DNA of 64,000 bases from Phycisphaerae bacterium (lineage in GTDB: Bacteria > Planctomycetota > Phycisphaerae > UBA1845), in the NCBI GenBank assembly GCA_029260035.1, contig JAJDEA010000120.1, positions 1-64,000 on the forward strand, given 5' to 3'. Shown here in pieces: positions 4,849-32,107 of this stretch. The first letter of the stretch is position 1, and each line of letters starts with the position of its first letter. The translations under genes were made by a program, and so were the position numbers. Under the pieces are notes generated by a model, which had not been told where the DNA came from, searched no databases, and saw only the letters and a program-made list of their open reading frames with translations.

Positions 4849-6024
4849 CTATTCGACGCCTTCGCGATTCGGGGTGCCTGCATCATCCACTGAGTCGCTC
4901 AATTCCGGGAGCGGCCCCAAATCGATATTTCTGGCGAGCGTGACCTGGATGGTAATCTCTTCATCGCCGCGTTCGAGCAAGATCTCGACATCCTCGCCCG
5001 CAGCTATCATGTATGTCGCCTTAATGATATGACCAAAATTCTTGATCTTCCTGCCATCAATCTCGGCAATCCGATCGCCGATTTGTGCACCCGCTTCTCG
5101 CATCGGAGAGGGGTCAGCCATGTTTGCAACAAACACGCCATCGGGCCGATTGCGTGGCGTAGACATGCCAAGCCAGCCACGATGAAATGACCGCCCCGTT
5201 TTGAGTGTTTCCACAATGGAATCGATGCGATCCTTTGGCACGACAAATCCGATCCCGGAATCGTAAAACTCAACGCCAGCAAGCTCGCCTGGTTTTTGCG
5301 CCATGGGCACACAAAGTCCAATGATCTTACCCTCGATATCGCAAAGCGGCCCACCGTAATTGACGGGGCTTAGTTTCGCATCCGTTTGGATAGCATTTCC
5401 CTGCATACGCTGAAGAGCGCTTACAATGCCAACTGTAACGGCTGGCTGCCTACCCCCCAGGCCTAGCCCCATGGCAATCGCCCATTCACCCGTGCGGACG
5501 TCTTCGCGTTCTTTCCAGGGTGGTGTCGGCAAATTGTCTTCCTCAATCTTGAGGAGCGCAATTTTTCGCACTTGATCGCGAGCAATTAAATCTGCAGCAA
5601 CATGCCTGCCGTCAGCAAGTGTGACGGAGATCAGTACCGGCTCGCGAACAAAATTGAAACTGCTTGTTACAATATAGCCGTCGCTAGAGTAAATAGTTCC
5701 CGTGGTCGATCCGTCCGCCACAATGAACTTGGAACCTGTCGATTCTCGGAATGGATTGGGCTTTGGATCCTCGCCCTCCTTTTCCTTCCCTTTGGTATTG
5801 ATTTGCGTCGTCGGCTGTGCGCCGCCCACCGTGTCGATCCGCACGATGTAAGGCCTGGTCGCTTCGAGCACGGATCGACAGGCTCGCTGCGTATCGAGCA
5901 GGAGTTGCATTTCCGTGCCAGGAGAGCGTTCGTCATCGATCGCCATAGAATGCCTTGTATATGGCACAAGCAGGAATATCAAAAAGAGCACGCTTGCGGA
6001 ATAGGAAATACGTCCGAACATCAC
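4849..6024 (-). CDS. Catalytically dead HtrA-like (S1C) protein with PDZ domain, second pseudoprotease
   Basis: A 391-residue protein with an N-terminal hydrophobic export segment (residues 8-22), a trypsin-like fold at about 45-255 and a PDZ domain at about 275-365. Aligned by eye with the neighbouring active paralogue, all three catalytic positions are changed: the His of TNYHVV is Phe123 (TSSFNF), the Asp of DPVGDVA is Lys154, and the nucleophile Ser of NPGNSGGPL is Tyr223 (SPVNYGGPL). The fold glycines around the former Ser (YGGPL) survive, which argues for a selected binding or scaffold role rather than decay. A Lys/Glu/Pro-rich insertion lies at 75-95. The start overlaps the stop of the previous gene (ATGA). 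Last gene of the long minus-strand series. Confidence 0.85.
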   Translation of the reverse strand: MMFGRISYSASVLFLIFLLVPYTRHSMAIDDERSPGTEMQLLLDTQRACRSVLEATRPYIVRIDTVGGAQPTTQINTKGKEKEGEDPKPNPFRESTGSKFIVADGSTTGTIYSSDGYIVTSSFNFVREPVLISVTLADGRHVAADLIARDQVRKIALLKIEEDNLPTPPWKEREDVRTGEWAIAMGLGLGGRQPAVTVGIVSALQRMQGNAIQTDAKLSPVNYGGPLCDIEGKIIGLCVPMAQKPGELAGVEFYDSGIGFVVPKDRIDSIVETLKTGRSFHRGWLGMSTPRNRPDGVFVANMADPSPMREAGAQIGDRIAEIDGRKIKNFGHIIKATYMIAAGEDVEILLERGDEEITIQVTLARNIDLGPLPELSDSVDDAGTPNREGVE

Positions 6025-7133
6025 GGGCCTTTCGTCTCTATGAAAATGGTCTTGATGACTCGGCCACGCCGAATAACAATTTCTATTGGCTCGCCAGGAT
6101 CAAGCCTATTAAGTCCAGCCTTGTATGCAGCCACATCAGGGACATTTCGACCATTGATGGAAAGTATTAAGTCGTCTTTGCGAACACCGGCCAAATCAGC
6201 AAGCGATTTTCGCTTGACTCGTTCGACGTATGGCAGCACGGTTCGATAGCCTGTCTTGCTGATCTTGATTCCAAGATCGATGCGGTCTTCGTGACTTTCC
6301 CTCGACCGGGTCGAATCATTGGTACCGTCTTCGCCTTGAGCTTGAAGAAAGAAATTGCAAAGTACGCTGCGCGGGATCGCATAATTGAGGTGCGTGTGCG
6401 TTTGGTTTGAAATGACAAGCCTGCCGATCATCCCTACGAATTCACCTTTTATGTTCACGACTGCGCTGCCCGGCGCGCCCGGGTTGCTCGTAATTCCATC
6501 TATAATCAAGACTTCGCCGGTGTACGGAAAATCATTGACACGACGTCTCGCGTCGAGACGTGTACGAGCGGAGAAAACACCATGGGCGATCGAAACGGGT
6601 TCGGGGCCGTCAGCAACTTTGAACGCGTTTCCCGCTGCAATAATCCAATCTCCAGGCTGCAGGGAACTTGATTGTGCCGAGCTAGCAACACTCTCACAAG
6701 CAAGATCGAAGAAAGGAAAAAGACCGGCTACTGGGTCGAAGGAAGGGCTGTCTGCCGGCCACGTTTCGTTCTGATCGGATTTTTGTTTCGTCATGCGTAG
6801 CAGTGCGAGCTGAAGCTTCTCGTCTCGCCGCACGATTTCCGCCGTGTAATGGACGCCTTCGGGCGTGACGACTGAGATGACTTTCGCGTCAATCAAGAGC
6901 GATGAAACGGTCAGGATTAAACCATCTTCGGAAACAACAACACCCGAGCCGTACCCTGCCTGAACCCCCGCACCGAGGCCGTATAACTTCACAACGCGCG
7001 GCTGGAGCCTGTCGATCGCTTGATCGAACCCACCAGCGGCAGCGCGTACTGCAAATGAAGCAATCACTAATGAGAGCAAGAGGAAAAAATTTCTCGCACC
7101 TAACGCTACTCTCGGTTGGCGGTGGAGAATCAT
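6021..7133 (-). CDS. Catalytically dead HtrA-like (S1C) protein with PDZ domain, first pseudoprotease
   Basis: A 370-residue exported protein with a signal sequence at about 13-33, a trypsin-like fold at about 40-260 and a C-terminal PDZ at about 280-368. The three triad positions are Ser78 (LTVSSLL instead of LTNYHVV), Gln108 (DEKLQLA instead of DPVGDVA) and Pro221 (NPGAPGSAV instead of NPGNSGGPL), so hydrolysis by the usual mechanism is not expected. The frame is intact and PDZ residues such as DDLILSINGR are well kept. It overlaps its upstream and downstream neighbours by ATGA on both sides, so three HtrA-like proteins should be made in a coupled way. A role as adaptor or regulator of the active protease is inference. 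Confidence 0.85.
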   Translation of the reverse strand: MILHRQPRVALGARNFFLLLSLVIASFAVRAAAGGFDQAIDRLQPRVVKLYGLGAGVQAGYGSGVVVSEDGLILTVSSLLIDAKVISVVTPEGVHYTAEIVRRDEKLQLALLRMTKQKSDQNETWPADSPSFDPVAGLFPFFDLACESVASSAQSSSLQPGDWIIAAGNAFKVADGPEPVSIAHGVFSARTRLDARRRVNDFPYTGEVLIIDGITSNPGAPGSAVVNIKGEFVGMIGRLVISNQTHTHLNYAIPRSVLCNFFLQAQGEDGTNDSTRSRESHEDRIDLGIKISKTGYRTVLPYVERVKRKSLADLAGVRKDDLILSINGRNVPDVAAYKAGLNRLDPGEPIEIVIRRGRVIKTIFIETKGP

Positions 7134-8890
7134 GGATCAACTCTCCATTGTGAGAGCGAATCCTGGTAGCGATATCCCGGCCCGGAGACAATGATCGTCT
7201 TGGGCAATCGGAGCACGCCACTCGCCTCGTAATCATGGAGATCCAACGACACCCTCACTCCCGAAGGATCATCTTCAAGATCTATGCGCAAGAGGTCATG
7301 CGAATCCATATCGAATTGCAAACGCGCTTGAGCGTCCTCGCCGATCGGCCAAGTAATCACTTCCGCCTCACGGGCGGGCAAGTATCGTGCACCAGCCTTG
7401 GCATCCAGATCACCTGCCATGTCTTTCATTCGTTCAAAGAAGACAGCATCGCCTCCCGCATGTCGAACATTGCCCGGTAGTGTATCTCCGGGCGGCTTCA
7501 TAAGGGTCTTGAAAACAAGGTCCAATGCAGCCAAGACCATCGCGCGATCGGTCGTTAAGTCAAACTCTTCCTCTCCTTCGCGTCGCTGCGTTGCCCGCTT
7601 TCCATCGAAGGAGAAAATCCTTATGGTTTCATTTTCTTCAGGCGAATGCTCCGTCAAGAACAATCCTTCGGTAGTCACCCGCGCAGCAAACAACTGATCG
7701 GCTTTCACGTCGCGATCGGCCAGAGCGAAATGCGTTCGATGGACGTTCCATTTCAGAGATTCAAATGGCTCCGCTGTATCGTCAGAACGCGCACTGCCTT
7801 TAAAGGCAGCCAACACACGCCGAACTTCTCGGTCGTTTACTTCCTGATCTACAATATAAGGCTTTCGCATCTTCGGCGGGATGGGATCAAGACGAACGAT
7901 TGATTCCGTTTTGGTGTTTTCCCTTTCAATCAACACCCGAACATTTCTGCTTCCCGGATACGTTCCCAAAACACTGGCGAAATGGTTCGGTGACGTAATC
8001 CTAACGCCATCTATCGAGAGCAGGCGATCTCCAAGTTGAGCGCCCGATCTGCTCAGCGCACCTGCCGGCAACATTTCCGCCAAGACCGTTTCACGATTTT
8101 GATCCAACTTAACTGTTGCCTGCAATGTGCCGTGCGCGGCGACAAGTCCAGATCGCAGAGCAGGTATGAATCGCCTCATCTGATTTGAGGTAATGGCATA
8201 GCCGAAACCAACGTTGTATCGACCTCGCGTGTTGACGGATATTCTCCCGTTAACGCCAATCACCTCTCCATCGCCATTGAACAACGGCCCGCCGGAATTC
8301 CCAGGATTGATCGACGTATCAACCTGGATGCAATCGGTGTAAGTCAGGTTTCCTTTCACACCCCATTGGTAGCGATGGATTCCCGTTACGATGCCAAGTG
8401 TCACGGTCGGCGAGTAGTCGTCGCTGAGAGTAAACGGGTTACCCATTGCGATGGCAGTGTCGCCGACGCGAACAAGATCGGAATCGCCGAGATCCGCAAA
8501 GGGAAAGGTCTCGCGCCCTACGAGTCTAAACATTGCGACGTCGCCTACGGGGTCGATCCCGAGAACCTCCAGATCGTAAAGCTTTCCATCACTCAGCCCG
8601 CCAAGACCTTTACGCTTATCGAGCATCCCTGCTACGACATGATAATTCGTCAGGCCATAGCCCTGTTCATCGATGATGACCCCCGAACCACCACCCCTCT
8701 GCTGCGTGTCGAAGACAGCAACCACAGCCGAACTCACACGATCGATCATTGCGATACGCTCAGCCTGCGCTTTCAACACCGATTCTGCCGGCGTAACGGC
8801 ATCAACACGACCGGGCGCAAATGCTATCGCCGCAGCCGCGAGAACCCACGCTGATATTTGGCCGAACGAAATCTCTGATGTACCTAACAT
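7130..8890 (-). CDS. HtrA/DegP-like serine protease with PDZ domain, intact triad
   Basis: A 586-residue secreted or periplasmic S1C protease. The start chosen gives a clean signal peptide (MLGTSEIS followed by a hydrophobic run to APG). A longer frame from 8986 would add 32 residues and overlap the upstream stop. The triad is His84 (TNYHVV), Asp117 (DPVGDVA) and Ser199 (NPGNSGGPL). A PDZ domain follows at about 265-355. The last 200 residues match no domain I recognise; they contain beta-rich segments with repeated DDxxL patterns. It is first of three HtrA-like genes and the only one with a complete active site. Expected role: quality control or processing of envelope proteins. Confidence 0.9.
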   Translation of the reverse strand: MLGTSEISFGQISAWVLAAAAIAFAPGRVDAVTPAESVLKAQAERIAMIDRVSSAVVAVFDTQQRGGGSGVIIDEQGYGLTNYHVVAGMLDKRKGLGGLSDGKLYDLEVLGIDPVGDVAMFRLVGRETFPFADLGDSDLVRVGDTAIAMGNPFTLSDDYSPTVTLGIVTGIHRYQWGVKGNLTYTDCIQVDTSINPGNSGGPLFNGDGEVIGVNGRISVNTRGRYNVGFGYAITSNQMRRFIPALRSGLVAAHGTLQATVKLDQNRETVLAEMLPAGALSRSGAQLGDRLLSIDGVRITSPNHFASVLGTYPGSRNVRVLIERENTKTESIVRLDPIPPKMRKPYIVDQEVNDREVRRVLAAFKGSARSDDTAEPFESLKWNVHRTHFALADRDVKADQLFAARVTTEGLFLTEHSPEENETIRIFSFDGKRATQRREGEEEFDLTTDRAMVLAALDLVFKTLMKPPGDTLPGNVRHAGGDAVFFERMKDMAGDLDAKAGARYLPAREAEVITWPIGEDAQARLQFDMDSHDLLRIDLEDDPSGVRVSLDLHDYEASGVLRLPKTIIVSGPGYRYQDSLSQWRVDP

Positions 8891-8943: not shown

Positions 8944-10206
8944 CTAGTTCCTCTTCACTGGCTTGATGAGGCGAGCGTCTCCCCAATCAACGTGATCGGA
9001 TAGGTCCACCGCATCACCGAAATCGGTAATGACTGTCAACTTCTGAACACCTGCAACATCAATGCGTATCAACTGGCTGCGCTGCTCACCCGTAAGATTC
9101 TCGATTTGAAAAAGCATCTTGCCGTCACCCAATACGCGGACACTAGCCCGTCCTCTCGGTCGAACGGCATCATCCATTCCGACGGTTGCCACGAAAGTCG
9201 CAAACTCACCTTCAAGATCGTATACAACTTCGGTATAAGCCTTAACACCGAGACCTTTTTCGTATTGTCGGCCGTCCAACGAAATCATGGCCCCCGCCGC
9301 ACTTCGATCGAGTTTCATCTCCGCTGGCTTGTGAAGGATCCCCCTGGTTTCAACATGGGCAGGCTTCAAGTCGCTCAGGTATACCAAGCGAGAACCAGCC
9401 ATGCGCAAATGACGCAATTGGTCGATCTGCAGGTCGAATTCGCCACCAAAAGACGCAGCCAAAGATATATTCAACGGGCTTGCTCGAAGAAACGTCGCGC
9501 CGAATATGTTCTCGTCATTCAATGTAGCCGTCACACGATTGGCACCATTCGGCGGAGATGCCTGGGCAAAGACAATGGCGAAAACTCTCTCTAGCTTAAA
9601 AGACCGCTCGCGATCAGCGAATGTAAACGTCCCCGCTTCTTTCGTGATCTTCTCAAGTCGTCCTCGCACACTCTTGGCATCGCCTGCGCTTCGTGTAATG
9701 AGCACATCATGGCCTGGCAATCGATTGCCTAGCGCCTTCAACAAAAACTCACCCGATCGAGGGAAATCCGTCGCAGTTGCAAATTGCACGGCAGCCAGTC
9801 GCTCAAACGGAAACACCGTACTCGTACCCAAAACGGTGTTGGCTACAATCGTCTCATCGCTTTGCTCAATTAATTCGCCAGCAATTCTCCCGCCGTCGAA
9901 CAAATGGAACACGGCTGATTCTGCGTTAAGGGCGCCCTCGCTCTCTTTGACATTGGACAAATCTGAGAAGTGAATCATGGCGAGGTCGTCCACGCGAATC
10001 TCACGCTCGACATCGCTCACGCTAAGCTTGATCGATTGTCCGTCGTTGGAGCCTAACCAACGACCTTCCGTCTCACGTCCATCGAGGTGGACCGCACGCA
10101 CAGTCACTCGCTGACCAGGATCGCCTTCCGCGAGAAGCAGTGCCGAAGGACCAGCCAACAGTGCAACAGCGATAGTGCCGAATAGTTGTCTCAATCTGAA
10201 TCGCAT
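8944..10206 (-). CDS. Secreted protein with NPCBM domain
   Basis: A 420-residue exported protein. ATG at 10206 follows two in-frame TTG codons and opens a signal peptide ending near LLLAEG. The N-terminal two thirds contain two similar beta-rich stretches (VDDLAMIHF and FERLAAVQF type motifs), probably an internal repeat. Residues of about 290-415 match the NPCBM/NEW2 galactose-binding-like fold, with the typical GRQYEKGLGVKAYTEVVYDL core, here Asp-rich toward the end. NPCBM domains in other bacteria bind carbohydrate. It sits upstream of the active HtrA, which suggests an envelope or cell-surface role. Function otherwise unknown. Confidence 0.78.
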   Translation of the reverse strand: MRFRLRQLFGTIAVALLAGPSALLLAEGDPGQRVTVRAVHLDGRETEGRWLGSNDGQSIKLSVSDVEREIRVDDLAMIHFSDLSNVKESEGALNAESAVFHLFDGGRIAGELIEQSDETIVANTVLGTSTVFPFERLAAVQFATATDFPRSGEFLLKALGNRLPGHDVLITRSAGDAKSVRGRLEKITKEAGTFTFADRERSFKLERVFAIVFAQASPPNGANRVTATLNDENIFGATFLRASPLNISLAASFGGEFDLQIDQLRHLRMAGSRLVYLSDLKPAHVETRGILHKPAEMKLDRSAAGAMISLDGRQYEKGLGVKAYTEVVYDLEGEFATFVATVGMDDAVRPRGRASVRVLGDGKMLFQIENLTGEQRSQLIRIDVAGVQKLTVITDFGDAVDLSDHVDWGDARLIKPVKRN

Positions 10207-10297
10207 CAACAATCTAGTCGTACCTCAAACATTCGGTAGAATACCATGGCAGGGTTTCGCGCCCCAGCATTAGAAAAAACACTATGCTTGGAGCAGG

Positions 10298-11386
10298 TCA
10301 GCGTTTCTTGGCCAACTCTTCGTAATACTGCTCGACAAGCTGACGGTACCTTCGTGGAAAACTATCGCGCAACGCTTGCAACACGCGCTCGCGCTCAGCC
10401 GGAGGCATAGCGCCCCACATCTCTGCGGGATTGGCACGCGGACTGTTTCGAAGCACGCCGTCTTTCATTTTGCCGCCCGGCAATTGCGATTCCTGTGCAC
10501 CGCGCTGACTCTGTTTACTCTTGTTTTGACTTCCGCTCCCACCGGAACTTTGTTGTTTCTTCCGACTGGATTTCTCCGCTTTTTCAGCATCCTTCACCAG
10601 ACGATCCAGCAAATCCAAAATGCGCTGCTGCTTCTCCTGCAACGACTCGCCGGAATCTGCGTCGCGCAGTCTTCGCCGCGAGAAACCCATCAGGTCCACG
10701 ACTTCGCCAATTTCGCCCAATTCCAAATTCGTAAGTTCTGCCAGCATCTGCCGTGCGGAAATGGTTAACCGCTGCGGCGCATCAGGGTAGTCACGAAGAA
10801 ACCCATCGAGTGTTTCCGCCGCCAAGCCGTATTCCAATGCGCCCAGCAAGCAGAATCCTTTGAGAAATGCAATTTCCGCCGACGCGTAGGTATAGTTTTC
10901 CAAATCGGACCCGCCATCGGCTGTCAAGTCTGCAATTCTGGCGCCCGCCTCCAGTATTTGCTCCCTCGCCACGAGCGCTTTGATTTCATAGACCTTGGCG
11001 TAAGTCGCCACAAACAGATTCTTTGACCTACCCAACTGATTGGCCATGTTCGCACTTTGCGCATATTCGTCATCATCGTAGGCATCCAGCACTTTGCGAA
11101 ATGACTCTGAGGCAAGCGTTAGTGCTTGCGTGAGAAACTCCTCACCGTCGCAATCCTGGCACTTGCTCCATGTCTCGCGTATCAGCGATCGTGCGTCGGC
11201 TGGAATGCTCGGAAATGTATCCAAACTCTCCGTAAAACGATCTGCCGGCGTGGACTGTGCACGAGCCGCAACCCCCAGCAGAAGCACGACACCTACACTC
11301 AGCCCGGCCAAGCCTCGGCTTTTCCATCTTCGCGCTTGCCGACCAAACACAGAACTTTGGCCTTCTTGATGTCCAAAATCAATCAT
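10298..11386 (-). CDS. Secreted helical protein of unknown function
   Basis: A 362-residue protein. The longest frame begins with TTG at 11416, but the internal ATG at 11386 is preceded by GGAAAGG with an 8-base spacer and opens a signal peptide (hydrophobic run LAGLSVGVVLLLGVAARA), so it is preferred. The body is alpha-helical and TPR-like: residues 60-210 contain repeated helix pairs with Ala/Leu spacing. A charged Ser/Gln/Lys-rich linker at about 265-300 precedes a conserved-looking tail with PPAERERVLQALRDSFPRRY. The tail resembles endings common in planctomycete envelope proteins but I cannot name the family. Position in the MoxR/vWA series suggests joint function. Confidence 0.7.
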   Translation of the reverse strand: MIDFGHQEGQSSVFGRQARRWKSRGLAGLSVGVVLLLGVAARAQSTPADRFTESLDTFPSIPADARSLIRETWSKCQDCDGEEFLTQALTLASESFRKVLDAYDDDEYAQSANMANQLGRSKNLFVATYAKVYEIKALVAREQILEAGARIADLTADGGSDLENYTYASAEIAFLKGFCLLGALEYGLAAETLDGFLRDYPDAPQRLTISARQMLAELTNLELGEIGEVVDLMGFSRRRLRDADSGESLQEKQQRILDLLDRLVKDAEKAEKSSRKKQQSSGGSGSQNKSKQSQRGAQESQLPGGKMKDGVLRNSPRANPAEMWGAMPPAERERVLQALRDSFPRRYRQLVEQYYEELAKKR

Positions 11387-11505
11387 GCATAATGCCTTTC
11401 CTTCGGGCCAGAGCAAACTTCTTCTCTACTGCGGGATTTCAGCCTGGGCGTTACAGCAAGATCCGCTCCAGCAGTCAACCTCATCCTAAATGTGCCTCGT
11501 AATCG

Positions 11506-13635
11506 TCACTCTTCTATCCTGCGATCGCGGATATCCTTCGCGATATCCTCGCATTCGCTCTGTCTTTCGGAAGCAGTAGATAACGCTGCTCCCAAAGTTT
11601 CGTCCAAATCGCTTGCATCTCCTCGCGCAGACTCGATCACCGTCGTCCGAATGTTGATTCGTTCTTGGCTGGAACGAAGAAGCTTTAGTTCGGCAGAAAG
11701 CGGAAGCAACGATTTATCCTCTTTACTTTTGTTGCTAGAGCCTTTGGCGTTCTGCTCGTTTCGCTGCTGCATTTGTTTGACGGAATCGATGAGCTGCTCC
11801 AAGGTGTCAAGAATCTCCTTTTCCATCGCCTGGGTGAGGCGGCCCGTATAAAGCTTGACCAACCTCTCAGCGACAACGTTCATGTCCGTTGCTAACTGAC
11901 TCATGATACGCGGGAAAACGATCGTCGTCCCTTCTTCGTCGAGAATATGAACACACGTCCTCGCCTTTTTGGAAAGCGATCGCTGCTGAGCAGCAAGATC
12001 CGCCAAACGCAACTTGTGAGGCCTTTTGAAATGCATCTTCCCGACTTTGTCGATGGTAAAGGTCGCGGCGTTGATCGCCTTTTGTTTGACGAGCAAACCC
12101 CGCAAACGTGCTTCGATGTCGCGAAGCATTTCCGCGCGGTCCTCTTGACGAAGCTGGCTTAGTGTCTCTTCGAGTTCCTGTCGGGCCTTTTCCAATTCAT
12201 CAATGGCACGATCCTGACGCTTGGTCGCCTCCGGCGAATCCTCCTTCTCGAGTGCCTCAGCTGCATCGTCCATCTCTTGTTGTGCGCGATCCAGATTTTC
12301 CTGCGCGCGATCCGGAGGGCCATCCTTCTGACCTTGTTGATCCGACTGGCTTTTCTGCTCTCCCTGCTTTCCTCCCTGCCCTTGTTGCCCTTTCTTTCCT
12401 TTCTGTCCTTCCTGGCCCTTTTGGCTTTGCGAACCCTGCTTCCCTTTCTGCCCACCTTGTTGGCCTTGCTTACCCTTTTGCCCTTGCGAGCCTTTCTGTC
12501 CGCCCTGTTTACCCTTTTGTCCTTGCTTTTCCCCCTTGCCACCGGGCTGGCCTTTTGCTCCCTTTTGACCAGACTTGTTAGCTTGCGAGGAATCCTGCTT
12601 CATTTTTTTTGAAAGACCACCCGTGTCTCGCGCAACGTCTCGTTGCTTCGCCGCTTGCTCGGCTGAGCTCTGCTTTTTTGCCAATTCGCGTTTGGCTTCC
12701 TCCAACTTCTTCCGCGCATCGCGCAGGGCTTTTTCAGCATCTCGCCCCTGATCGCGCGCATCGCTCTTCTTGCCAGATGCCATCGACTTGCCAGCCTGCG
12801 ACATCGACTTGGCTGCAGATTTCATCGACTTGGAAGCGTCACCTGTTTTCCCACGCGCTTCCCGGGCTTCGCGAGAATCTGCAGCTTTCTCTGGCGCGAG
12901 ATCGGAAAGTCGCTGAAGATCGTCAGCAAGCGCTTTCGCATCACGTTCAATCGCCTCTTGCTCTTTCTGTTGTTTCTTATTCTCGCCGGGTTGGCTCGCC
13001 TGCGCGTTTTTCGATAGTTTGCTGGAAAGGTCGCCTTGACGCTTTAGCATCGAATCGATGCGACGTAATGCCTGATCGATCTGCTTGGACAAACGCTGTG
13101 CGACGCTCGATTTCGCAGATGCATCGCGTAGCGAACGTTGCGTCTCCAACAATCTCTGGAGTTCCTTCTTGTAAGCTTCAAGCTTTTCCAACTCGCGCTT
13201 GCGATCTTCATTTTGGCTGTCGCGCTCAAGCAGAATTCCCAACAGCCGATCTGCGTCCTCCATCCATTTGCTTTGTGCTTCAGCGGCGTCACTTAACAAC
13301 CCGGGGTCATTCAGTAACTCGATCATTTTTTCCAGCCGATCACCAAGAGCAAGCTCTCCCTCCCTTTCGAGGACTCTGTCGAGGCGCGCTGCGTTTTCAG
13401 GCTCTGTCTTGGCTAAATCTTCTCGCAGACGATAAACGCGGTCCTTGAAGCGTTCAAAACGATCGCGAATCATTTGCTCCTTGGCAGACAGCGGACTTAC
13501 ATCACGCACTTCGTCTTGCCCCTCATCCTGCGGAGATGGATAATCCTGCGCAAACGCTGGTAAAAACGTCACGAGCAAGACACTGAGTACGATTGGGAAG
13601 CACGCATTGAGAGATCGAAGTGTTAGTCGAATCAT
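11506..13635 (-). CDS. Secreted coiled-coil protein with collagen-like Gly/Gln/Lys tract
   Basis: A 709-residue protein. ATG at 13635 is chosen because AGGGAG lies 6 bases upstream and it opens a signal peptide ending FLPAFA; the longest frame starts 20 codons earlier. Residues of about 50-350 are strongly charged heptad-like helices, Lys/Glu/Asp/Arg-rich. Residues 354-440 are an extreme tract made of GQKGKQG-like units. A second helical part (about 445-700) includes a segment with FKRPHKLRLADLAAQQ. The composition suggests a long rod separated by a flexible basic spacer. Function is unknown. Its neighbour also begins as a membrane-anchored helical protein, so the two may interact. Confidence 0.75.
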   Translation of the reverse strand: MIRLTLRSLNACFPIVLSVLLVTFLPAFAQDYPSPQDEGQDEVRDVSPLSAKEQMIRDRFERFKDRVYRLREDLAKTEPENAARLDRVLEREGELALGDRLEKMIELLNDPGLLSDAAEAQSKWMEDADRLLGILLERDSQNEDRKRELEKLEAYKKELQRLLETQRSLRDASAKSSVAQRLSKQIDQALRRIDSMLKRQGDLSSKLSKNAQASQPGENKKQQKEQEAIERDAKALADDLQRLSDLAPEKAADSREAREARGKTGDASKSMKSAAKSMSQAGKSMASGKKSDARDQGRDAEKALRDARKKLEEAKRELAKKQSSAEQAAKQRDVARDTGGLSKKMKQDSSQANKSGQKGAKGQPGGKGEKQGQKGKQGGQKGSQGQKGKQGQQGGQKGKQGSQSQKGQEGQKGKKGQQGQGGKQGEQKSQSDQQGQKDGPPDRAQENLDRAQQEMDDAAEALEKEDSPEATKRQDRAIDELEKARQELEETLSQLRQEDRAEMLRDIEARLRGLLVKQKAINAATFTIDKVGKMHFKRPHKLRLADLAAQQRSLSKKARTCVHILDEEGTTIVFPRIMSQLATDMNVVAERLVKLYTGRLTQAMEKEILDTLEQLIDSVKQMQQRNEQNAKGSSNKSKEDKSLLPLSAELKLLRSSQERINIRTTVIESARGDASDLDETLGAALSTASERQSECEDIAKDIRDRRIEE
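12316..12576 (-). repeat. Low-complexity Gly/Gln/Lys-coding tract
   Basis: On the minus strand this stretch codes almost only Gly, Gln, Lys and Ser in short imperfect units such as GQKGKQGQQG and GSQGQKG. The matching DNA is a degenerate 18-24 base tandem repeat. Such tracts expand and contract by slippage, and length differences between strains would be expected. Confidence 0.85.
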
Positions 13636-13731
13636 GGACTGCTCCCTAATCATAGATGCAAACGACGCCCCAGGCTTCCGTTCGGTTGCGTGCAAGCCGT
13701 CAATGAACTATTTCCTCGATATTTCTCGTCG

Positions 13732-15858
13732 TCAATCTTCAAAAATATCACCGACTTCTTTTTCGAGTGCATCCTTAGTCTCCGTACTCAGCTCGCTCTG
13801 CAGACGCACGATGTCTCTAAGCATGGTGACGAGTTCATGGTATCCTTCCCATTGTATCATAACAGACAAGACTGCTCGCATCCTCGCTAGCGCTTCGTAT
13901 TGCTTCTGATCCACGGCAGAGGCTGTCTCAGCAGTACCGTCTCGCGACCACTGACGAATCGTATCCGCCGCATCGGCCAAGTCCCGCCGAGCGATCTCCG
14001 TCAACGGATCAATAATTCGGATTTGAAGCCTTTCGCGCTCCTCATCCGTATCAAGTTGATTCACTCTTAGCTCAGCCAACACGCGCTCGAACTGCTGCCG
14101 AATCACGTTGATCGAACTAATGATGCTGCGCTGCCGACGTTCAAGCGGCGTAAGAGTCGATCCGAGCCACTCCAAGTCTGGTTTTTCGCGGTGCTTACGC
14201 ATCGCAGTGAGCAATTCCCCGCGCAACCGTTCCTGATTATCCACCAGCCTTTCAAAGTCCATTCGATATTCCTGCTCTCTGCGCGAGATTTCAGCAAGGA
14301 ATTCGTCTTTGGAGACAACCCGGATAACAACCTGCGTAGACTCAGCCAGATTTGGTCCTGAAACGTCATCAAAATCACTCGCTCGTGCCATTAATGAGAC
14401 ACGATCTCCTGCTTCAAGTTCGACAGTCGAAACAGGCCAGGACAAACTTGTCTCAAGGTGTGTCGCCCGGAGTTCGAAACCATCAAAGGGGATTGGTTTT
14501 TCCGATTCTTCTCCCTCTTGATACAAGAGATTCGCCGTGGCAAGCCCGTAGGTATCAGAAAACTCCAGCTCCATCGGCAGAATCGCCTGCGGCGTAACCA
14601 TATCGCCCACGCCGGGAAGCCTTAAACGCACCAATGGCGCATCATCTTTCATAACCCGCAGTGCGAACTGCACAGGTCTGCGGTTTTCAAATCCAACTTC
14701 ATCCACAAGCAGGAACTGATACGTTGCAGATTTCATAAGCGTCACGTTCGCGACATAGTAATCGCCTTCTTGACTGATCTCGCCGACTTCCTCCTCGTTG
14801 CTTACGAACGACACCTTGGACACCGGCTTATTCATAAGCGCGCGAAACGTGACAGTCGTTCCAGGTAGAACTTGCGCGGATCGCCGATCTTCACCGAACG
14901 TAACAGGATTCAATCCAGAGTAGGCGGGCGGAACAATTTCCATGCTGCTTTGGACGACCCGGGGCCGATCAATCAAGCGTGCTTCGTACCATTTCGTTCG
15001 GTCGTCACCGCCAAACAGCTGAAATCGAAACGATTCCTTAGGCCTTTGAAACGTGTGGCGGTAACGATAGGATCCAATGTTGCCGATCGAAACCATAGAC
15101 TCTCTGCCGGTTTGACCTGACAAGGTCTCATAGCGGATACCGACTTCTCTTGGCTGAATGCCTTCAGCAAGCGCCTGCACGACAAGATCGTCTCCTCGCG
15201 CACCGATCAATTCGCCATCGGTCAACTCAACAACCAGACGCGTTCGCTTCGGCCATTCGATATTGTGTAAGAGAACGTTTCGCGAAAACCACATACCGAC
15301 CATCTCGGGTGACACAATGGTCGCGCAAGTTGCCATCGCAACAACACCCATCAGAACAGCCGCTGAGCGTCGGGCGCGTGAGGGGTTAACAACGACAAGA
15401 AAATCGATCGAAGCTGTCGCAATCCGTGCCCGGTCCACAACCGACGCAATGAGGGAGGGCGAATTGGATATAGGCAAGCCGACTTCATCTTGATCAAACC
15501 GGACGGCTGAAACCAGAACAGAAGAAAGCTCCGGAAACCGTCGTTCCACGAGCTTCGCTGCGTCAGCCAGACCAATTTTCAATCTCAAAGGCCTCCAGAC
15601 CCGCAGAGCAGCAACCCATGCACCACACGCAAGTGTCAGGCCCAGAAGCGCTGCACGCATGCTCCATTGCAAACCACGCGTCCAATAGTCAATCGCAAAC
15701 TGGATCAATGCCAGCGCAACCAAGGTCACGACAATCCACGCAACGCCCTCAATGAACACATAACGCCGCAAACGTCTGACCACTTCGCGCAACCGCCCCA
15801 CAACGGAGGAATCCAGCCTCCACGATTGCGAGTTAGATGATGTAATCTGACTGTTCAC
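13732..15858 (-). CDS. DUF4175-like membrane protein with coiled-coil tail
   Basis: A 708-residue protein. GTG at 15858 follows GAGGGACAGG and is preferred to an in-frame TTG four codons earlier. Two hydrophobic helices lie at about 36-58 and 64-85, then a third near 165-185, so the N-terminus is membrane-bound. The middle (about 200-500) is beta-rich, with several repeats of Ig-like spacing. The C-terminal 200 residues are a charged coiled coil. The overall layout resembles DUF4175 proteins, which sit beside MoxR/BatA-type genes; this is a layout match, not a verified hit. Position 36 bases after the vWA gene implies cotranscription. Confidence 0.7.
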   Translation of the reverse strand: MNSQITSSNSQSWRLDSSVVGRLREVVRRLRRYVFIEGVAWIVVTLVALALIQFAIDYWTRGLQWSMRAALLGLTLACGAWVAALRVWRPLRLKIGLADAAKLVERRFPELSSVLVSAVRFDQDEVGLPISNSPSLIASVVDRARIATASIDFLVVVNPSRARRSAAVLMGVVAMATCATIVSPEMVGMWFSRNVLLHNIEWPKRTRLVVELTDGELIGARGDDLVVQALAEGIQPREVGIRYETLSGQTGRESMVSIGNIGSYRYRHTFQRPKESFRFQLFGGDDRTKWYEARLIDRPRVVQSSMEIVPPAYSGLNPVTFGEDRRSAQVLPGTTVTFRALMNKPVSKVSFVSNEEEVGEISQEGDYYVANVTLMKSATYQFLLVDEVGFENRRPVQFALRVMKDDAPLVRLRLPGVGDMVTPQAILPMELEFSDTYGLATANLLYQEGEESEKPIPFDGFELRATHLETSLSWPVSTVELEAGDRVSLMARASDFDDVSGPNLAESTQVVIRVVSKDEFLAEISRREQEYRMDFERLVDNQERLRGELLTAMRKHREKPDLEWLGSTLTPLERRQRSIISSINVIRQQFERVLAELRVNQLDTDEERERLQIRIIDPLTEIARRDLADAADTIRQWSRDGTAETASAVDQKQYEALARMRAVLSVMIQWEGYHELVTMLRDIVRLQSELSTETKDALEKEVGDIFED

Positions 15859-15894
15859 CCTGTCCCTCAAGCAACAATACTGCCCAATCGCGCG

Positions 15895-18360
15895 TCACAG
15901 CAGGCGATTCCATTTCCTCAAAAACCACTCCATCGAAAGCAAAACCAAGAGCAGCGTAAACAACTTCCAATTATCCCAGAGCGGAATAGGTCTCGACCGG
16001 ATCGGCAACTCTTCGTGAAGGTCCTGGATGAGTTTTGGTATTTCGTCCGCCTTGTCGATACCAAAATACTTTCCATTCGCCGAACCGACGGCAAGAGCCT
16101 GCAACGCCGATCGATCCATCTGAGGTCTTAACGTTTCCAAACTCGATCGTGCAATGCGGATGTCACGAATAAACTCCTCAGCTTCCACGCCCGAAGACGC
16201 AGGCAGTGTCATGCGAATTCGGCAAGATCCGATTCGATCGGGAATGAATCGGCCTTCATACCAGCCAGGCCTGTCGCGACGCGCGGTTAATGCGAAATCT
16301 CGACGTACACCATCCATCTCATAGACGGCAACGATTTGATCCCGAACGATTGGCTCGAATCGCTCGTCCAGCAATCGAGCCGTCACTGCGACACTTTCTC
16401 CCAAAGAAGCCTGGGTACTATCCGTCATAAGCAGCCCCCGCTTCATCCCCCCGAGCAGTTTCCCCTCCGCCAAGAACCGAATCGTTTGAATCCAAAACCG
16501 GTCAAACACTTCCTCGCCATACCGGCGCCATCGCCAGGTTCCATCAAGACCCAAAAACCCCGTTCGTCCCGCACCAACATATTGCACCGCAGCCAGCACC
16601 TGGCCGCCGAATGAATTGCGCATGCGCGGATTGCCATGCCGCATCAGAACCGTAGCGACGGCCTTTTCTCGAAGCACCGGATAGTGCCAATAGATGTCAC
16701 CCAACCCCTGCCAAGCCAACCTCGTCTCAACCGCATCGACGCCTCTTTGCATGATCGGATGGGATTCTGCACCGACTCCCAACTCTACAGGCCAACTTTT
16801 CTGCTGGTAATGGCCAATCTGATTGAGTACCAGGTCCGCCTCCGGATCAAGCGTCACCGGCAGCAAGTCGTGCAACACGTTGAGCGACGGATCGCGCATG
16901 AAAACAGGCGTACGAGGCCTGGCGGCGGCGAACAACATACCCGCACCCTGTTGAGTCACCAGTTTGTCGATCAGACGACACCATTCGTCGTCAAAATCAC
17001 TGCGATCGGGATCCATTAAGATGATTACGTCGTACTCGGCGAGTTCGTCCGGAAGCGAGGGAAAATGGTCGATGACGGTGTTGCCATCGCGCACAGCGCT
17101 CAAATGGGCCGACTGAAGCCAGCAGCTAACGTCTATTGTTTCGTCGCGCTCCAGCAGTCTTGACAAATAGCGATAATCCCAGCTCGGGCCACCCGCAACG
17201 AGAAGAACACGGGTCTGCGCATCCATCACATTGACCGTAGTCTGCCGGCTATTGTCATCGATTACAGACTCGTTCTCTACACCCACAACCTCAACTGTAT
17301 AGGTAAAACGACCCGCCTGTTCTTTTTGTCGTTCAAACGAAACCTCTGAAACGACCCCGCCTAAACCAACTGATGCGGTTGAAGTGTCAACAACCTGACC
17401 TTCACTCATGGAGTCTGCGCGTCGTTCGCGAAGCTGAATTTGTATCGTTTCGCCGACAAGCCCTTGTGAAGTCAGTTCGGCCGAAATTGAAAAAGGGTCT
17501 TTTTCGAAGACATTGTCAGGTGCTATGACTTCGGCGATGCGAACATTTCGAGGCTCAGCAGGATCGCCGATTCCAACAACATGAATTGGAATGCCTCGCT
17601 CTCGCGCATAACGAGCAACGTCAGCTGGCGAAGCGCCCTCGTTGAACCCGCCATCACTCAGCACGACAATGCCTGCAATCGGCGCACCGCCCAGCGACTC
17701 AACCGAACGACGAACCGCCCGCTCGATGCGAGTTGATGCCCCACTCGCGACGAATTCCGTCGTAACAGATTCAACACTCGACACATTGGTCGCGCCTTCT
17801 GATTCATCGGGTGCTTTCAAATTTTCCCGATCGGTGGCGAGCGTAGCCAGCAGCGTCGACTCCGCGGCAAAGCTGTACAATTTGACTCGATTCCTCTTAA
17901 TAAGCGCACGAAGAAACGCTCGATCATCTCGTTCAAGCACGGAATGCACGAGGTCTATGCGCGACGACTCATTCTTATCACTTCTTGCCAAAACATCTTG
18001 CACAAGTTTTGCTTCTTCCGGCTGTCGGTATGCGTCCACCATTCCCATGCTGGCGGAATTGTCCACCAAAACAATCGTGTACGAATCAACCCATCGGCGT
18101 AGAATCCGTACGAGTGCTGGCTCAAGTAGTATAGCGGCGAGCAAAACGATCGTGGCGCATCGAGTTATCCCAAGCAGCAATCGAGTACGAGGCGTCGATC
18201 CGATTCGACCTTCCGAGCGATACATCCAAACAATCGCCCAACAAATCGCGACGAGTAGCACGATTCCTCCAGCCGCAAACCAGCCGGTCGGAAGACGCTG
18301 AAACTCCGTCACGAAATCCTCGACATCGCGCGAGCCGATAGTAGCCAATCCTCCCATCAT
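15895..18360 (-). CDS. vWA-domain membrane protein with glutamine-amidotransferase-like middle domain
   Basis: An 821-residue protein. The ATG at 18360 overlaps the preceding stop as ATGA; a frame extension to 18381 is less likely. Two transmembrane helices near 30-50 and 70-90 are followed by a von Willebrand factor A domain with an intact MIDAS DxSxS (VDNSASMG). An extracytoplasmic beta-rich part follows, then a class I amidotransferase-like fold starting at TRVLLVAGGPSWDYRYL. A C-terminal hydrophobic helix near 795-815 is also present. The same architecture is common beside BatA and MoxR in planctomycetes. Probable role: an integral scaffold of the MoxR/vWA complex. Ligand unknown. Confidence 0.83.
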   Translation of the reverse strand: MMGGLATIGSRDVEDFVTEFQRLPTGWFAAGGIVLLVAICWAIVWMYRSEGRIGSTPRTRLLLGITRCATIVLLAAILLEPALVRILRRWVDSYTIVLVDNSASMGMVDAYRQPEEAKLVQDVLARSDKNESSRIDLVHSVLERDDRAFLRALIKRNRVKLYSFAAESTLLATLATDRENLKAPDESEGATNVSSVESVTTEFVASGASTRIERAVRRSVESLGGAPIAGIVVLSDGGFNEGASPADVARYARERGIPIHVVGIGDPAEPRNVRIAEVIAPDNVFEKDPFSISAELTSQGLVGETIQIQLRERRADSMSEGQVVDTSTASVGLGGVVSEVSFERQKEQAGRFTYTVEVVGVENESVIDDNSRQTTVNVMDAQTRVLLVAGGPSWDYRYLSRLLERDETIDVSCWLQSAHLSAVRDGNTVIDHFPSLPDELAEYDVIILMDPDRSDFDDEWCRLIDKLVTQQGAGMLFAAARPRTPVFMRDPSLNVLHDLLPVTLDPEADLVLNQIGHYQQKSWPVELGVGAESHPIMQRGVDAVETRLAWQGLGDIYWHYPVLREKAVATVLMRHGNPRMRNSFGGQVLAAVQYVGAGRTGFLGLDGTWRWRRYGEEVFDRFWIQTIRFLAEGKLLGGMKRGLLMTDSTQASLGESVAVTARLLDERFEPIVRDQIVAVYEMDGVRRDFALTARRDRPGWYEGRFIPDRIGSCRIRMTLPASSGVEAEEFIRDIRIARSSLETLRPQMDRSALQALAVGSANGKYFGIDKADEIPKLIQDLHEELPIRSRPIPLWDNWKLFTLLLVLLSMEWFLRKWNRLL

Positions 18361-20669
18361 CGCTTGCGACCCCACGCCCAAGCCAGTGTTTGCTCGCCCA
18401 TAAGCACAACCAATACAACCAGCAACGCCGCACGCCAGAATTCCGTACGCGTCTCGCCGGCTTGCGCGTTCAAGCCTTCCAACCCTTCAATGTAATCAAA
18501 ATCGATACCGGGCATCGCACTTCGTAATTCAGCCTCCTCTGCCATGGCAAGGTCGCCTTCTCGAGGATCAACATTAACCGCAGCCGTCTTAGCGATTTCA
18601 TTTCCGTCTCGCCCCCGAAGGATAAACTTATAGAATCCCGCGCGATCCGTGTGGTCCCACGTTGCAGCCCATCCTTCTCCATCTTCCGTTGGCTTAGCGG
18701 TCAATCCGATTTCCCGTTCCGATGGATACGCGGGCGTTCGGACGGTGATGTCCGGTTCATACAGTGCGGGGTCCAGCGCAAGCTGGATCGGTTCTCCGAC
18801 CCGTTGATCATCCACCGAGTCGCCGCGTTTAGCCACATGCTGCACCATCTCCAACATCACCGGCAAAAAGGTGGGGTGGTCAGGCCATTGGTGCCACTCC
18901 TTGTCGGCCGACGTCGCAATCAACACGACCCGACCCGCGCCAAACGATTTTTCCACAATCGCAGGATTCCCTTTTTCGTCGTCGAACCGCGCAATGATTT
19001 GAACGCGGGGAATATCAGAACCTTGAATACCAACGCCTTCTGACCTCGTCTCGTCATCGCCGCCATCGGGCGCCACATTCGCGGCACTACTGAAGAACTC
19101 GTAAAACGGAACACGACTCAAACCCAGCGGATCGCCGTCCTTTGCAACGCCCTGCATAGCTGGGTGGAGTCGATCGACAACGACGAGGTTGGTCGCCGTC
19201 GCGGCTCGAATCCGCTCCGACAGCAGCACAGGTAGCAATCCCTCGCCGTCACGGTATAGATTGCTGTTGTACACGTCTGCATCAACCTGATCACCCAGAA
19301 AAAAGAGGACGCCGCCCCCGTCAGCCGTAAACTGCTCCAAAGCCTTTAGGCCCGGTTCGCTTAGCCTGTATACGTTAGCCAATATCACGGCGTGGAATGT
19401 CGAAAGGTTGGTTTCTTCCAGCTCCGTATCGTTAATAACCACGACTTCATTACCGCTAAAAATATCTCCCTGCGGCCTAAGAGCCGTTGCCAGCAGACTC
19501 ACTTCGTCGTTGAAATCGTCGGCGGATGGCTCGCCATCAACAACCAGAAGTCGAACAGCGCTTACGACCTCCAACGAATGATAGCGAACATCATCCAACG
19601 GAAGGGAATCCAAAGGCAGGTCCACGCGAATTGTCTCGAATCCCGCTCGACGAAACTGCGCTTCGAAGCCCACTTCGGCTCGCTGAAATGGTGCGATGGT
19701 GTCGATTTCTTTCGCAGGATGAGCCAAGCTTCCGACAGTCAATCGTAAATTCAAGCCATCCATTGGTCGGCTGGAATAATTCAAGATTTCTGCGTTAAGA
19801 ACCCCATCCGTCCCGGCCACAACCTGACGACCGTCTAACGAAATCTTTGCAATCGCACGATTGGCAGCGCCCCGTGTTCCCACATTAATCAGGGAGACGC
19901 GAAGACCTCGGTTGTTGTCCGCCCAGGCCTTTAGTGGTGTAAGAGCCGAAGCCGTCTCCGCGTCCTCCCCCTCGCGTGCAGGCCGAATCACCCAATCGTG
20001 GCGTTGGAAATCGCTGATAACATACACCGCCGCATTCAAGACACCGGGACTGCTTTCCAATTGGCCCGCGACAGCTTCCAAAACCGACCCCGGATCAATC
20101 GCCCGCTGCGACGTTTGCAGGCCTTCCAAATGCGAAAGAAGTTCTTCCGCATCGGCCTGACTCAAGTAAACGCCGGACTCGATCGGGGCATCCGGCTCGG
20201 TCATGCGAAGAATAGTCATCGAATCATTGGGGGATTCCTGTCTGATTGCTTGAATGAGTTGGCGTACCGCGGATTTCGCCGTGTCGAAAGAAGTGCCAGT
20301 TTCGGTTTCGTACCCCATGCTGAACGAATCATCTAGCACGATAATTCGTTCCGTTCGCTGCGAACCTCCAAACGCTGACGCAATACTCGACAAACTAAGG
20401 AATGGACGACCAAATAATACGCCCAGCAACAATACAGCCAAGCAACGCAGCGCGAGCAAAATCCAATCCTCAAGGCGAATTCTTCTCCGATTCGTTCGCT
20501 CTGCCTGTAATAGAAAACTGATTGCCGCCCAACGAATACGCTTAAAACGTCTTCGCGCAAAAAGATGAATCAAAACGGGCAGACTTATGGCACCAGCGCC
20601 AGCCAGAAATAAGCCCGGCGTGACAAAGGCAGCTAAAATGGGTGGTGTTAGAATATACGGTGTCAACAT
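18357..20669 (-). CDS. BatA-domain and vWA-domain membrane protein
   Basis: A 770-residue protein starting with the BatA (aerotolerance regulator N-terminal) helix pair: a hydrophobic segment with PVLIHLFARRRFKRIRWA, then a second helix around LALRCLAVLLLGVLFGRPFL. A vWA domain follows with MIDAS DDSFSMG (DxSxS). The later part carries a ThuA/amidotransferase-like segment (DGGGVLFFLGDQVDADVYN), beta-rich repeats, and a final membrane helix near 745-763. It is coupled to the next vWA gene by an ATGA overlap. In Bacteroides-type Bat operons such proteins sit in the inner membrane facing the periplasm. Confidence 0.86.
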   Translation of the reverse strand: MLTPYILTPPILAAFVTPGLFLAGAGAISLPVLIHLFARRRFKRIRWAAISFLLQAERTNRRRIRLEDWILLALRCLAVLLLGVLFGRPFLSLSSIASAFGGSQRTERIIVLDDSFSMGYETETGTSFDTAKSAVRQLIQAIRQESPNDSMTILRMTEPDAPIESGVYLSQADAEELLSHLEGLQTSQRAIDPGSVLEAVAGQLESSPGVLNAAVYVISDFQRHDWVIRPAREGEDAETASALTPLKAWADNNRGLRVSLINVGTRGAANRAIAKISLDGRQVVAGTDGVLNAEILNYSSRPMDGLNLRLTVGSLAHPAKEIDTIAPFQRAEVGFEAQFRRAGFETIRVDLPLDSLPLDDVRYHSLEVVSAVRLLVVDGEPSADDFNDEVSLLATALRPQGDIFSGNEVVVINDTELEETNLSTFHAVILANVYRLSEPGLKALEQFTADGGGVLFFLGDQVDADVYNSNLYRDGEGLLPVLLSERIRAATATNLVVVDRLHPAMQGVAKDGDPLGLSRVPFYEFFSSAANVAPDGGDDETRSEGVGIQGSDIPRVQIIARFDDEKGNPAIVEKSFGAGRVVLIATSADKEWHQWPDHPTFLPVMLEMVQHVAKRGDSVDDQRVGEPIQLALDPALYEPDITVRTPAYPSEREIGLTAKPTEDGEGWAATWDHTDRAGFYKFILRGRDGNEIAKTAAVNVDPREGDLAMAEEAELRSAMPGIDFDYIEGLEGLNAQAGETRTEFWRAALLVVLVVLMGEQTLAWAWGRKR

Positions 20670-20850
20670 ACAATCTATCGGTTCGGGTATTCACCAAGTA
20701 GTTCGAGATCAATTGCCACTAACGCAAGTTCTATTCGACTGACGAATCCAAAAGCACCCTGCTATTCTCAGCGGTCTTGCGTTTGCCACGCCATCCAATC
20801 ATTCGTGGCTGTTTCATGAGAAACCGTTTCGTATTCAGGTTTTCCTTCTA

Positions 20851-21774
20851 TTACGCTCTCGCGCGTTGTCGGCGCAGGCGACGAGCCAGGCAACTCGACA
20901 ATGCAACGTCCAAACTTTCGGCGGTACTGATCAGGTTGTAGTCGATTCGATGGTCAAGACACGCAGAACGAATGCGCGATACAAACTCGCGGACCGCCTC
21001 CAAATAGCTTTGCCTAAGGGATTGCGGGTCCGTCAACACCTCGACATTCTCCTCTTCAATCGCCTCAAACAATGTCTGATCCGCAAACGGAAACTCCAAT
21101 TCATCATGATCCAACACATGCAAAACGATAACATCATGGCCTGCATGTCGCAGTCGCTGCAACCCTTCAACAACGTCAGCCACGTCCGTCAGAAGATCCG
21201 ACAAAAGAATAACCATTCCTCGTCGAGGAATATGCTCCGCCAAGTGCGACATCAACGAACTCATATCGGTCGGCTCTGCGGGACGGTGCGCTTCGATCAC
21301 AGATGCAAGACTAGCCAGAGCCGCCGTACTTGTAGAAACGGGAACATGCGTACGAACCCGATCGTCGAAAAGCGTCAACCCAACCGCATCTTGCTGTTGC
21401 GCGAGCAAATGGGCCAACGACATACCCGTGGTCGCCGCATAGTCCCACTTCGTCATTCGATCCGTTCCTGGATGCTCGGGATATCCCATCGAACCGGAGC
21501 AATCAAGCAGCAAGTGAACGCGCATGTTGGTCTCTTCTTCATATTCCTTAATGAAGAATCGATCCGCTTTGGCGTAAACACGCCAGTCGATGTGCCGAAT
21601 GTCGTCGCCTGGAGCGTAAGGTCTGTGATTCGCAAATTCTACACTAAACCCCTTGTAAGGGCTTTTGTGCAAACCGCTCACGAACCCCTCTACAACGAAT
21701 CGGGCGCGCAGGTCAAGCCGGCCGATTCGACTGAGAATTTCAGGCCGAAAGTACTTTCCTGGTTCTCTCGTCAT
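20851..21774 (-). CDS. DUF58 domain protein (vWA-like, MoxR partner)
   Basis: A 307-residue cytosolic protein. ATG at 21774 is preferred over an in-frame TTG at 21801. The DUF58 hallmark [14 protein letters not shown] lies at about 60-75, followed by a vWA-like MIDAS (LLDCSGSMG). DUF58 proteins are almost always the immediate partners of MoxR ATPases and are thought to be their clients or adaptors. The start lies inside the moxR 3' end (35-base overlap), which supports coupled translation. A 181-base gap follows before the BatA-like gene. Confidence 0.9.
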
Positions 21775-22798
21775 CGTCCAGCTTCGTTCCGTTTGGATCA
21801 ATGGTTTCCAAAAGCTCGGTAATGATTCGATCTGCGGAATACCCCTCAGCCTCCGCAGAGAAATTTATGACAATTCGGTGACGCAGAACGGGCAAGGCCA
21901 ATTCGCGAATATCGTCAGCGGCAACGTGATGCCGACCTCTGAGTAGTGCGCGCGCCTTGCCTCCCAGAAGCAGCGATTGAACGGCTCGTGGCCCAGCGCC
22001 CCATGTAACCATCTTGACCGTCAACTCCGGACACTCAACCTCTGCCGGCCTCGTCGCCCGAACCAGGTCCAGCGCATACCGAACAACATCCGGCGCAGCA
22101 GGAACACGCCGGACGAGCTTTTGAAAGGCCAAAATATCTTCGCCCTTCAAAACCGGCTCAAGATCAGGCATGTCTTGTGCCGTCGTTCTGTCGGCAATCG
22201 CGTATTCTTCGTCGTATGAAGGATACCCAACGAGCACTTTGAACATAAACCGATCTTGCTGCGCCTCGGGGAGTGGGTACGTTCCTTCCTGCTCGATCGG
22301 ATTTTGCGTAGCTAACACAAAAAAGGGTAACGACAGATCATGGCGCACGCCACCCACCGTCACATGCCTTTCCTGCATTGCCTCAAGCAGCGCAGCCTGC
22401 GTCTTTGGCGGCGTACGATTGATTTCGTCAGCCAAGAGCACGTTGGCGAAGATTGGTCCCGGCAGGAATCGAAACTCCCGCGTACCCGTTGCGCGATCTT
22501 CCTGAATCACCTCCGTGCCGGTGATGTCTGAAGGCATGAGGTCCGGGGTAAACTGAATTCGGCTAAACGATAATGCCAAACACTTGGCAAGTGATGAAAT
22601 CGTCAGCGTTTTCGCAAGCCCCGGGACTCCCTCCAGAATGCAGTGACCGTTGGCAAAAAGAGCGATCAGCAATTGATCGATCACTTCGTTCTGGCCGACA
22701 ATAATCTGACCAAGCGCCGAGCGCAACGATTCACACGCTTGGCCGAGGCGATCGACAAGCGCTACATCCAGTTCAGTGCTTCCACTTGTACTATCCAA
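21740..22798 (-). CDS. MoxR-family AAA+ ATPase
   Basis: A 352-residue AAA+ chaperone-like ATPase. Walker A is GVPGLAKT (residues of about 59-66), Walker B is [21 protein letters not shown], and sensor 1 appears as [23 protein letters not shown]. The start is TTG with GAGAGGA 8 bases upstream, a strong ribosome binding site; no nearby ATG gives the full N-terminus. MoxR proteins load metals or remodel vWA-domain partners. Here DUF58 and two vWA membrane proteins follow directly. The gene is preceded by a 97-base gap after the toroid gene. Confidence 0.94.
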
Positions 22799-31449: not shown

Positions 31450-31537
31450 AGGGTGGTCTCAACTCCCTCGACACATCGAGGTAACACAAGTCTCATGCGG
31501 AATCGACCAGAGTCGAGCCGCAGTCTTGATCTTTGTC

Positions 31538-32104: not shown

Positions 32105-32107
32105 AAA

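Follow-up and report, generated by a model that had tools for sequence, protein, structure and literature searches.

Two triad-less HtrA-like paralogues retained beside one active protease in Phycisphaerae and Planctomycetia

Three adjacent genes for HtrA-like (S1C-PDZ) proteins, one with an intact catalytic triad and two in which the triad has been replaced, are present with a conserved gene order in both the Phycisphaerae and the Planctomycetia. The arrangement exceeds chance: throughout the phylum the genes reappear in this order, and the residues that replace the triad reappear with them. Judged from sequence comparison, the trio may form a single secreted HtrA system of three components, of which one is catalytic and two are pseudoproteases, with direct contact between the products of the first two genes, a reading for which we see the balance as even. 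The trio was identified in the 4.9 Mb genome of a Phycisphaerae bacterium, within a stretch of 64,000 nucleotides (the window) on contig C24, where the genes lie on the minus strand in the order A, B, C and close a long gene run:

7130..8890, minus strand: gene A, secreted HtrA-like protease with His84-Asp117-Ser199 and one PDZ
7130..7133, minus strand: A/B junction, ATGA, the A stop overlapping the B start codon
6021..7133, minus strand: gene B, S1C-PDZ pseudoprotease with Ser78/Gln108/Pro221 at the triad positions
6019..6024, minus strand: B/C junction, GTGATG, the B stop with the C start codon
4849..6024, minus strand: gene C, S1C-PDZ pseudoprotease with Phe123 (or Asn124)/Lys154/Tyr223 at the triad positions

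All three open reading frames are intact, and inspection of their N-termini reveals signal-peptide-like stretches. Pfam places a trypsin-like domain followed by a PDZ domain in each protein, the architecture of the HtrA/Deg (S1C-PDZ) fold family, with E values for Trypsin_2 of 7.7e-29 in A, 4.7e-16 in B and 2.2e-23 in C; the PDZ domain of A matches weakly, with a best E value of 5e-05 that stays below the Pfam cut-off, and its C-terminal domain of about 220 residues (window 7130-7800) has no Pfam match. The initial annotation was right that frames and PDZ domains are intact, with the proviso that the PDZ of A falls below the cut-off. Its further statement that all the genes overlap by ATGA holds for A and B (7133-7130) and fails for B and C, where the junction reads GTGATG and the overlap is four bases with a GTG start or one base with an ATG start. 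A single-chain AlphaFold2 model of C (pLDDT 85.4, pTM 0.80) found its best Foldseek matches, with identities of about 25%, in DegQ, DegP, DegS and Deg1.

The catalytic positions were read from a MAFFT alignment in which A, B and C were set against DegP, DegQ and DegS of E. coli and a further five HtrA-like proteins encoded by the genome of the window. A and every reference protein carry H-D-S, as had been proposed for A from its sequence, and B carries S-Q-P, for which the residue numbers first given were correct. In C the site of the Asp is occupied by Lys and that of the Ser by Tyr, again as first described; the His site, originally given as Phe123, is Phe123 in an HMM alignment to PDB 22kg and Asn124 in the MAFFT alignment with DegP, a choice that hinges on the placement of a one-residue insertion and in neither case yields His. 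An alternative alignment that restores the triad in B or C was sought and rejected, because neither protein has an invariant His at any position. The His-Asp-Ser triad of an active HtrA/Deg (S1C) protease is thus present in A and absent from B (60 + 94 rows) and C (81 + 109 rows), the sets overlapping in both cases. On these residues A would be the only catalytic subunit of the trio, with B and C as pseudoproteases.

Orthologues of C, defined by a score of at least 180 bits where every other match fell below 120 bits, occur in 84 of the 114 genomes of the order, and the gene order NPCBM-A-B-C, preceded by common upstream genes, was found in most of the 80 loci read. Sampling was extended to whole genomes of the phylum and to the best 80 matches from a single scan through a collection of bacterial and archaeal genomes, and a like arrangement was recovered in the Pirellulaceae, the Planctomycetaceae and further phycisphaeral loci, so that the search for orthologous triples in other planctomycetes had a positive outcome. 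In the order and in the wider sets alike, A orthologues read HDS in every sequence that covers the triad sites. Within the order, B orthologues have mostly S or T, then Q, R, E or K, then P or A at these positions, and those of C have F (rarely V, I, L or Y), K or R (once Q), and Y or F. No His or Ser was seen at the His and Ser sites among the 109 C sequences of the combined sets and no full triad among the 94 B sequences; active orthologues of B or C, looked for in relatives as grounds against the original proposal, were not found. In some B proteins of the Planctomycetia the Asp site still holds Asp or Glu. The Ser site is occupied by Ser in a few B proteins, which lack both the His and the Asp (GQS, SQS).

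Individual loci depart from this pattern. In the Planctomycetia loci L210 (9899-11857) and L123 (520-2511), C reaches about 650-690 residues and comprises the pseudoprotease and two PDZ domains, and in L210 it ends in an S9/alpha-beta-hydrolase-like tail that scores just above the Pfam cut-off. In L105 (5017-5881, genome G093) B is split over two frames, and in L049 (8423-9202, genome G110) C stops early at an internal TAG, each being either an error or decay.

In a tree of 77 proteins, A, B and C form three clades, each with an SH-aLRT value of 100 (from quick trees, with no bootstrap) and each containing members of both the Phycisphaerae and the Planctomycetia. With three fully supported clades, loss of catalysis would be older than the split between the classes, and the simplest reading of these sequences is a single trio that predates it. 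Pairwise dN/dS ranges from 0.10 to 0.26 for A, from 0.03 to 0.34 for B and from 0.04 to 0.26 for C, values to be taken loosely as several dS estimates are near saturation. Conservation in C is near its highest at the pseudo-active site (F-N-F and N-Y-G): residues F123, N124, F125, N222 and Y223 lie in the 98th-99th percentile of weighted conservation and K154, at the Asp site, in the 79th. For B the percentiles are the 84th (S78), the 93rd (Q108) and, at the Ser site, a moderate 57th (P221). These percentiles indicate active maintenance of the dead site in C and looser maintenance in B. Low dN/dS, a measure named at the outset as a check, the absence of any active orthologue of B or C and the conserved pseudo-site of C together support an old and maintained loss of catalysis, in line with the earlier suggestion that the loss was selected. 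Local decay or an assembly error was considered as a source of the missing triads and ruled out by the wide orthology and the low dN/dS.

Inheritance of the three genes is close to all-or-none. Of the 114 genomes in the order, 84 have A, 82 have B and 84 have C; all three occur together in 82 and none occurs in 30. B alone is missing in G048 (71% complete), where the match to A is cut short, and in G061 (87% complete), where C stops near a contig end. In 16 genomes A and B are a single open reading frame: in genus g6 (L231-L234), in genus g32 (L098, L099, L102, L104), in family f7 (L051, L052, L055, L057, L060, L061, L235) and in G023 (L114). The tree of C, likewise a quick tree with no bootstrap, requires five changes of fusion state, at least three of them forced by starred branches, and some of the changes may be splits rather than fusions; the fusion probably arose in three or more events, and separate A and B genes are probably the ancestral planctomycete state. 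The L098 fusion contains two Trypsin_2 and two PDZ stretches by Pfam, and a single-chain model of the L061 fusion, of moderate quality (pLDDT 74.0, pTM 0.68), matched HtrA structures in a fold search. In the fusions of family f7 the C-terminal part of A, of about 220 residues, is missing and B follows directly in its place. No fusion of C to A or B was found in any locus read, and in genus g6 C is separated from the fused A-B gene. Taken from gene content and gene structure, co-inheritance and fusion would speak for a shared function, with no implication as to stoichiometry, and contact between A and B appears to be the best-supported link of the trio.

The genes upstream of A in the window make up a conserved cluster that resembles the Bat (aerotolerance) clusters in its MoxR, DUF58 and BatA/VWA domains (genes 8944-22798):

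8944..10212, minus strand: NPCBM-domain protein, the conserved immediate upstream neighbour of A
10298..11416, minus strand: conserved upstream protein, labelled TPR, without a Pfam match
11506..13695, minus strand: coiled-coil, collagen-like-rich protein of the conserved cluster
13732..15870, minus strand: large protein of the conserved cluster, labelled D4175, without a Pfam match
15895..18381, minus strand: VWA-domain protein of the conserved cluster
18357..20669, minus strand: BatA-N and VWA protein of the conserved cluster
20851-21801, minus strand: DUF58 gene of the Bat-like cluster
21740-22798, minus strand: MoxR AAA+ gene of the Bat-like cluster

Genomes such as G001-G003, G034 and G045 have VWA and NPCBM homologues yet none of A, B and C, which sets the trio apart from the cluster as a unit of its own. 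G016 and G024 likewise lack the trio and have VWA and mostly also NPCBM homologues. The genome of the window itself has a second, paralogous VWA/NPCBM cluster (G000:C96:14557-23325), on a contig where no Trypsin_2/HtrA match was found. Elsewhere in the window, a predicted membrane protein at 38-2191 resembles, on inspection, an ABC permease joined to a CAAX-type intramembrane protease, and epimerase, SIS-domain and PfkB-cytidylyltransferase genes at 30523-33598 resemble a heptose pathway. To our knowledge, the HtrA trio is absent from the bat operons of Bacteroides.

Like DegP, DegQ and DegS, the proteins of the trio combine a trypsin-like domain with PDZ and a secretion signal and, in the case of C, match the HtrA fold in a structure search. 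HtrA/Deg oligomers are built from trimers; those of DegP, DegQ and DegS consist of one type of polypeptide in which every protomer is catalytic, whereas the trio combines catalytic and triad-less polypeptides. A parallel in gene arrangement, an active HtrA encoded near an HtrA pseudoprotease, is found in magnetotactic bacteria, where MamO, an HtrA pseudoprotease with a degenerate triad, is needed for proteolysis dependent on MamE and activates it; active and inactive HtrA proteins have been paired repeatedly (MamE/MamO, MamE1/MamE2), and selection for the pairing was inferred by the authors (PMC4794232). There, however, each active partner has one pseudoprotease and the planctomycete trio has two, and MamO has a TauE transporter domain, a di-histidine metal site and a magnetosome function. 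Pfam detects no C-terminal TauE transporter domain in B or C, and all three proteins score far below the NCBIfam cut-offs for MamE and MamO (for the MamO model, 22.8 bits for C and 26.3 bits for B against a cut-off of 800). In plants, Deg7 joins an active and a degenerate HtrA domain in one polypeptide, and the degenerate domain drives trimerisation (PMC3473262, PMC4754418). The same joining of active and degenerate domains occurs in the 16 genomes with a fusion, not in the window; Deg7 carries four PDZ domains and lacks a third paralogue encoded apart, in contrast to the two PDZ stretches of the L098 fusion. The trio belongs to neither the MamE/MamO nor the Deg7 family and resembles both in logic. 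A 2019 survey of PDZ proteins, which nowhere uses the word 'inactive', counted 55 HtrA-family proteins among five planctomycetes; a search for literature on pseudoenzyme serine proteases in planctomycetes returned none. The initial annotation had named no published case with two dead paralogues. The pairing of active and inactive HtrA proteins is described for MamE/MamO, MamE1/MamE2 and Deg7; for two dead HtrA paralogues kept with one active one at such evolutionary depth, no description was found in the open-licence literature.

In the mechanism that we favour, A, B and C would act as one secreted system linked to the MoxR/DUF58/BatA-VWA envelope cluster, with B and C keeping their trypsin-like and PDZ folds after replacement of their triads, probably before the Phycisphaerae and Planctomycetia diverged. 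The repeated fusion of A and B makes it most likely that B binds A directly, in a structural or regulatory role; C would be a third, more separable subunit, presumably of the same complex. For the conserved aromatic plug at the former active site of C, holding a loop in one conformation or binding a peptide is likelier than cutting, and the dead subunits may tune A or recruit substrate for it. Joint retention since before the class split points to the dead copies as functional components of a quality-control protease machine. A mixed HtrA ring, 1:1:1 or otherwise, in which one protomer cuts and two dead ones recognise or gate, is a tentative extension of this reading. Of the three candidate roles first offered for the dead paralogues, namely substrate receptor, inhibitor or subunit of a hetero-oligomer, that of hetero-oligomer subunit or partner gains some support from all-or-none co-inheritance and repeated A-B fusion.

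As an alternative, B and C could work on their own as receptors or adaptors. They would then form homo-oligomers and no mixed ring with A, capture exposed peptides with their PDZ domains and blocked active-site clefts, and pass clients on to A or to other machinery of the envelope. Their PDZ domains are intact, the cleft residues of C are highly conserved, genus g6 shows that C can be parted from A-B, and the two PDZ domains and S9/alpha-beta-hydrolase-like tail in L210 indicate that C can be attached to another module; the A-B fusions, however, point to direct contact of B, and we regard this alternative as a minority view that deserves attention. A role of B and C purely as inhibitors or latency subunits, holding A off until envelope stress releases it, is unlikely: overlapping genes make coupled translation plausible and the inactive HtrA domain of Deg7 can control oligomerisation (PMC3473262), but an inhibitor that is simply released fits less well with the permanent fusion of A and B in several lineages, and MamO activates its partner instead (PMC4794232). 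Somewhat more unlikely still is a move of B and C to an unrelated task, such as ligand or metal sensing or a scaffold in the cell envelope, with the operon as their only link to A; the protease domain of MamO did become a metal-binding domain (PMC4794232) and the operon holds many non-protease envelope genes, yet such a move fits poorly with all-or-none inheritance with A, with A-B fusion and with the persistence of VWA and NPCBM homologues in genomes that lack the trio. Ordinary decaying duplicates, which the lost triads and the single broken copies of B (L105) and C (L049) might bring to mind, are highly improbable against purifying selection, class-deep orthology and conserved replacement residues.

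Pseudoproteases have usually been studied singly, and here two bacterial classes have both retained a pair of distinct dead paralogues alongside one active HtrA. The natural A-B fusions hint at which partners touch, and the role of dead protomers in an HtrA oligomer thereby becomes directly testable. The trio also offers a lead to the function of a large uncharacterised envelope cluster of planctomycetes. If a mixed ring does exist, two classes of the Planctomycetota would share a conserved HtrA machine of asymmetric build.
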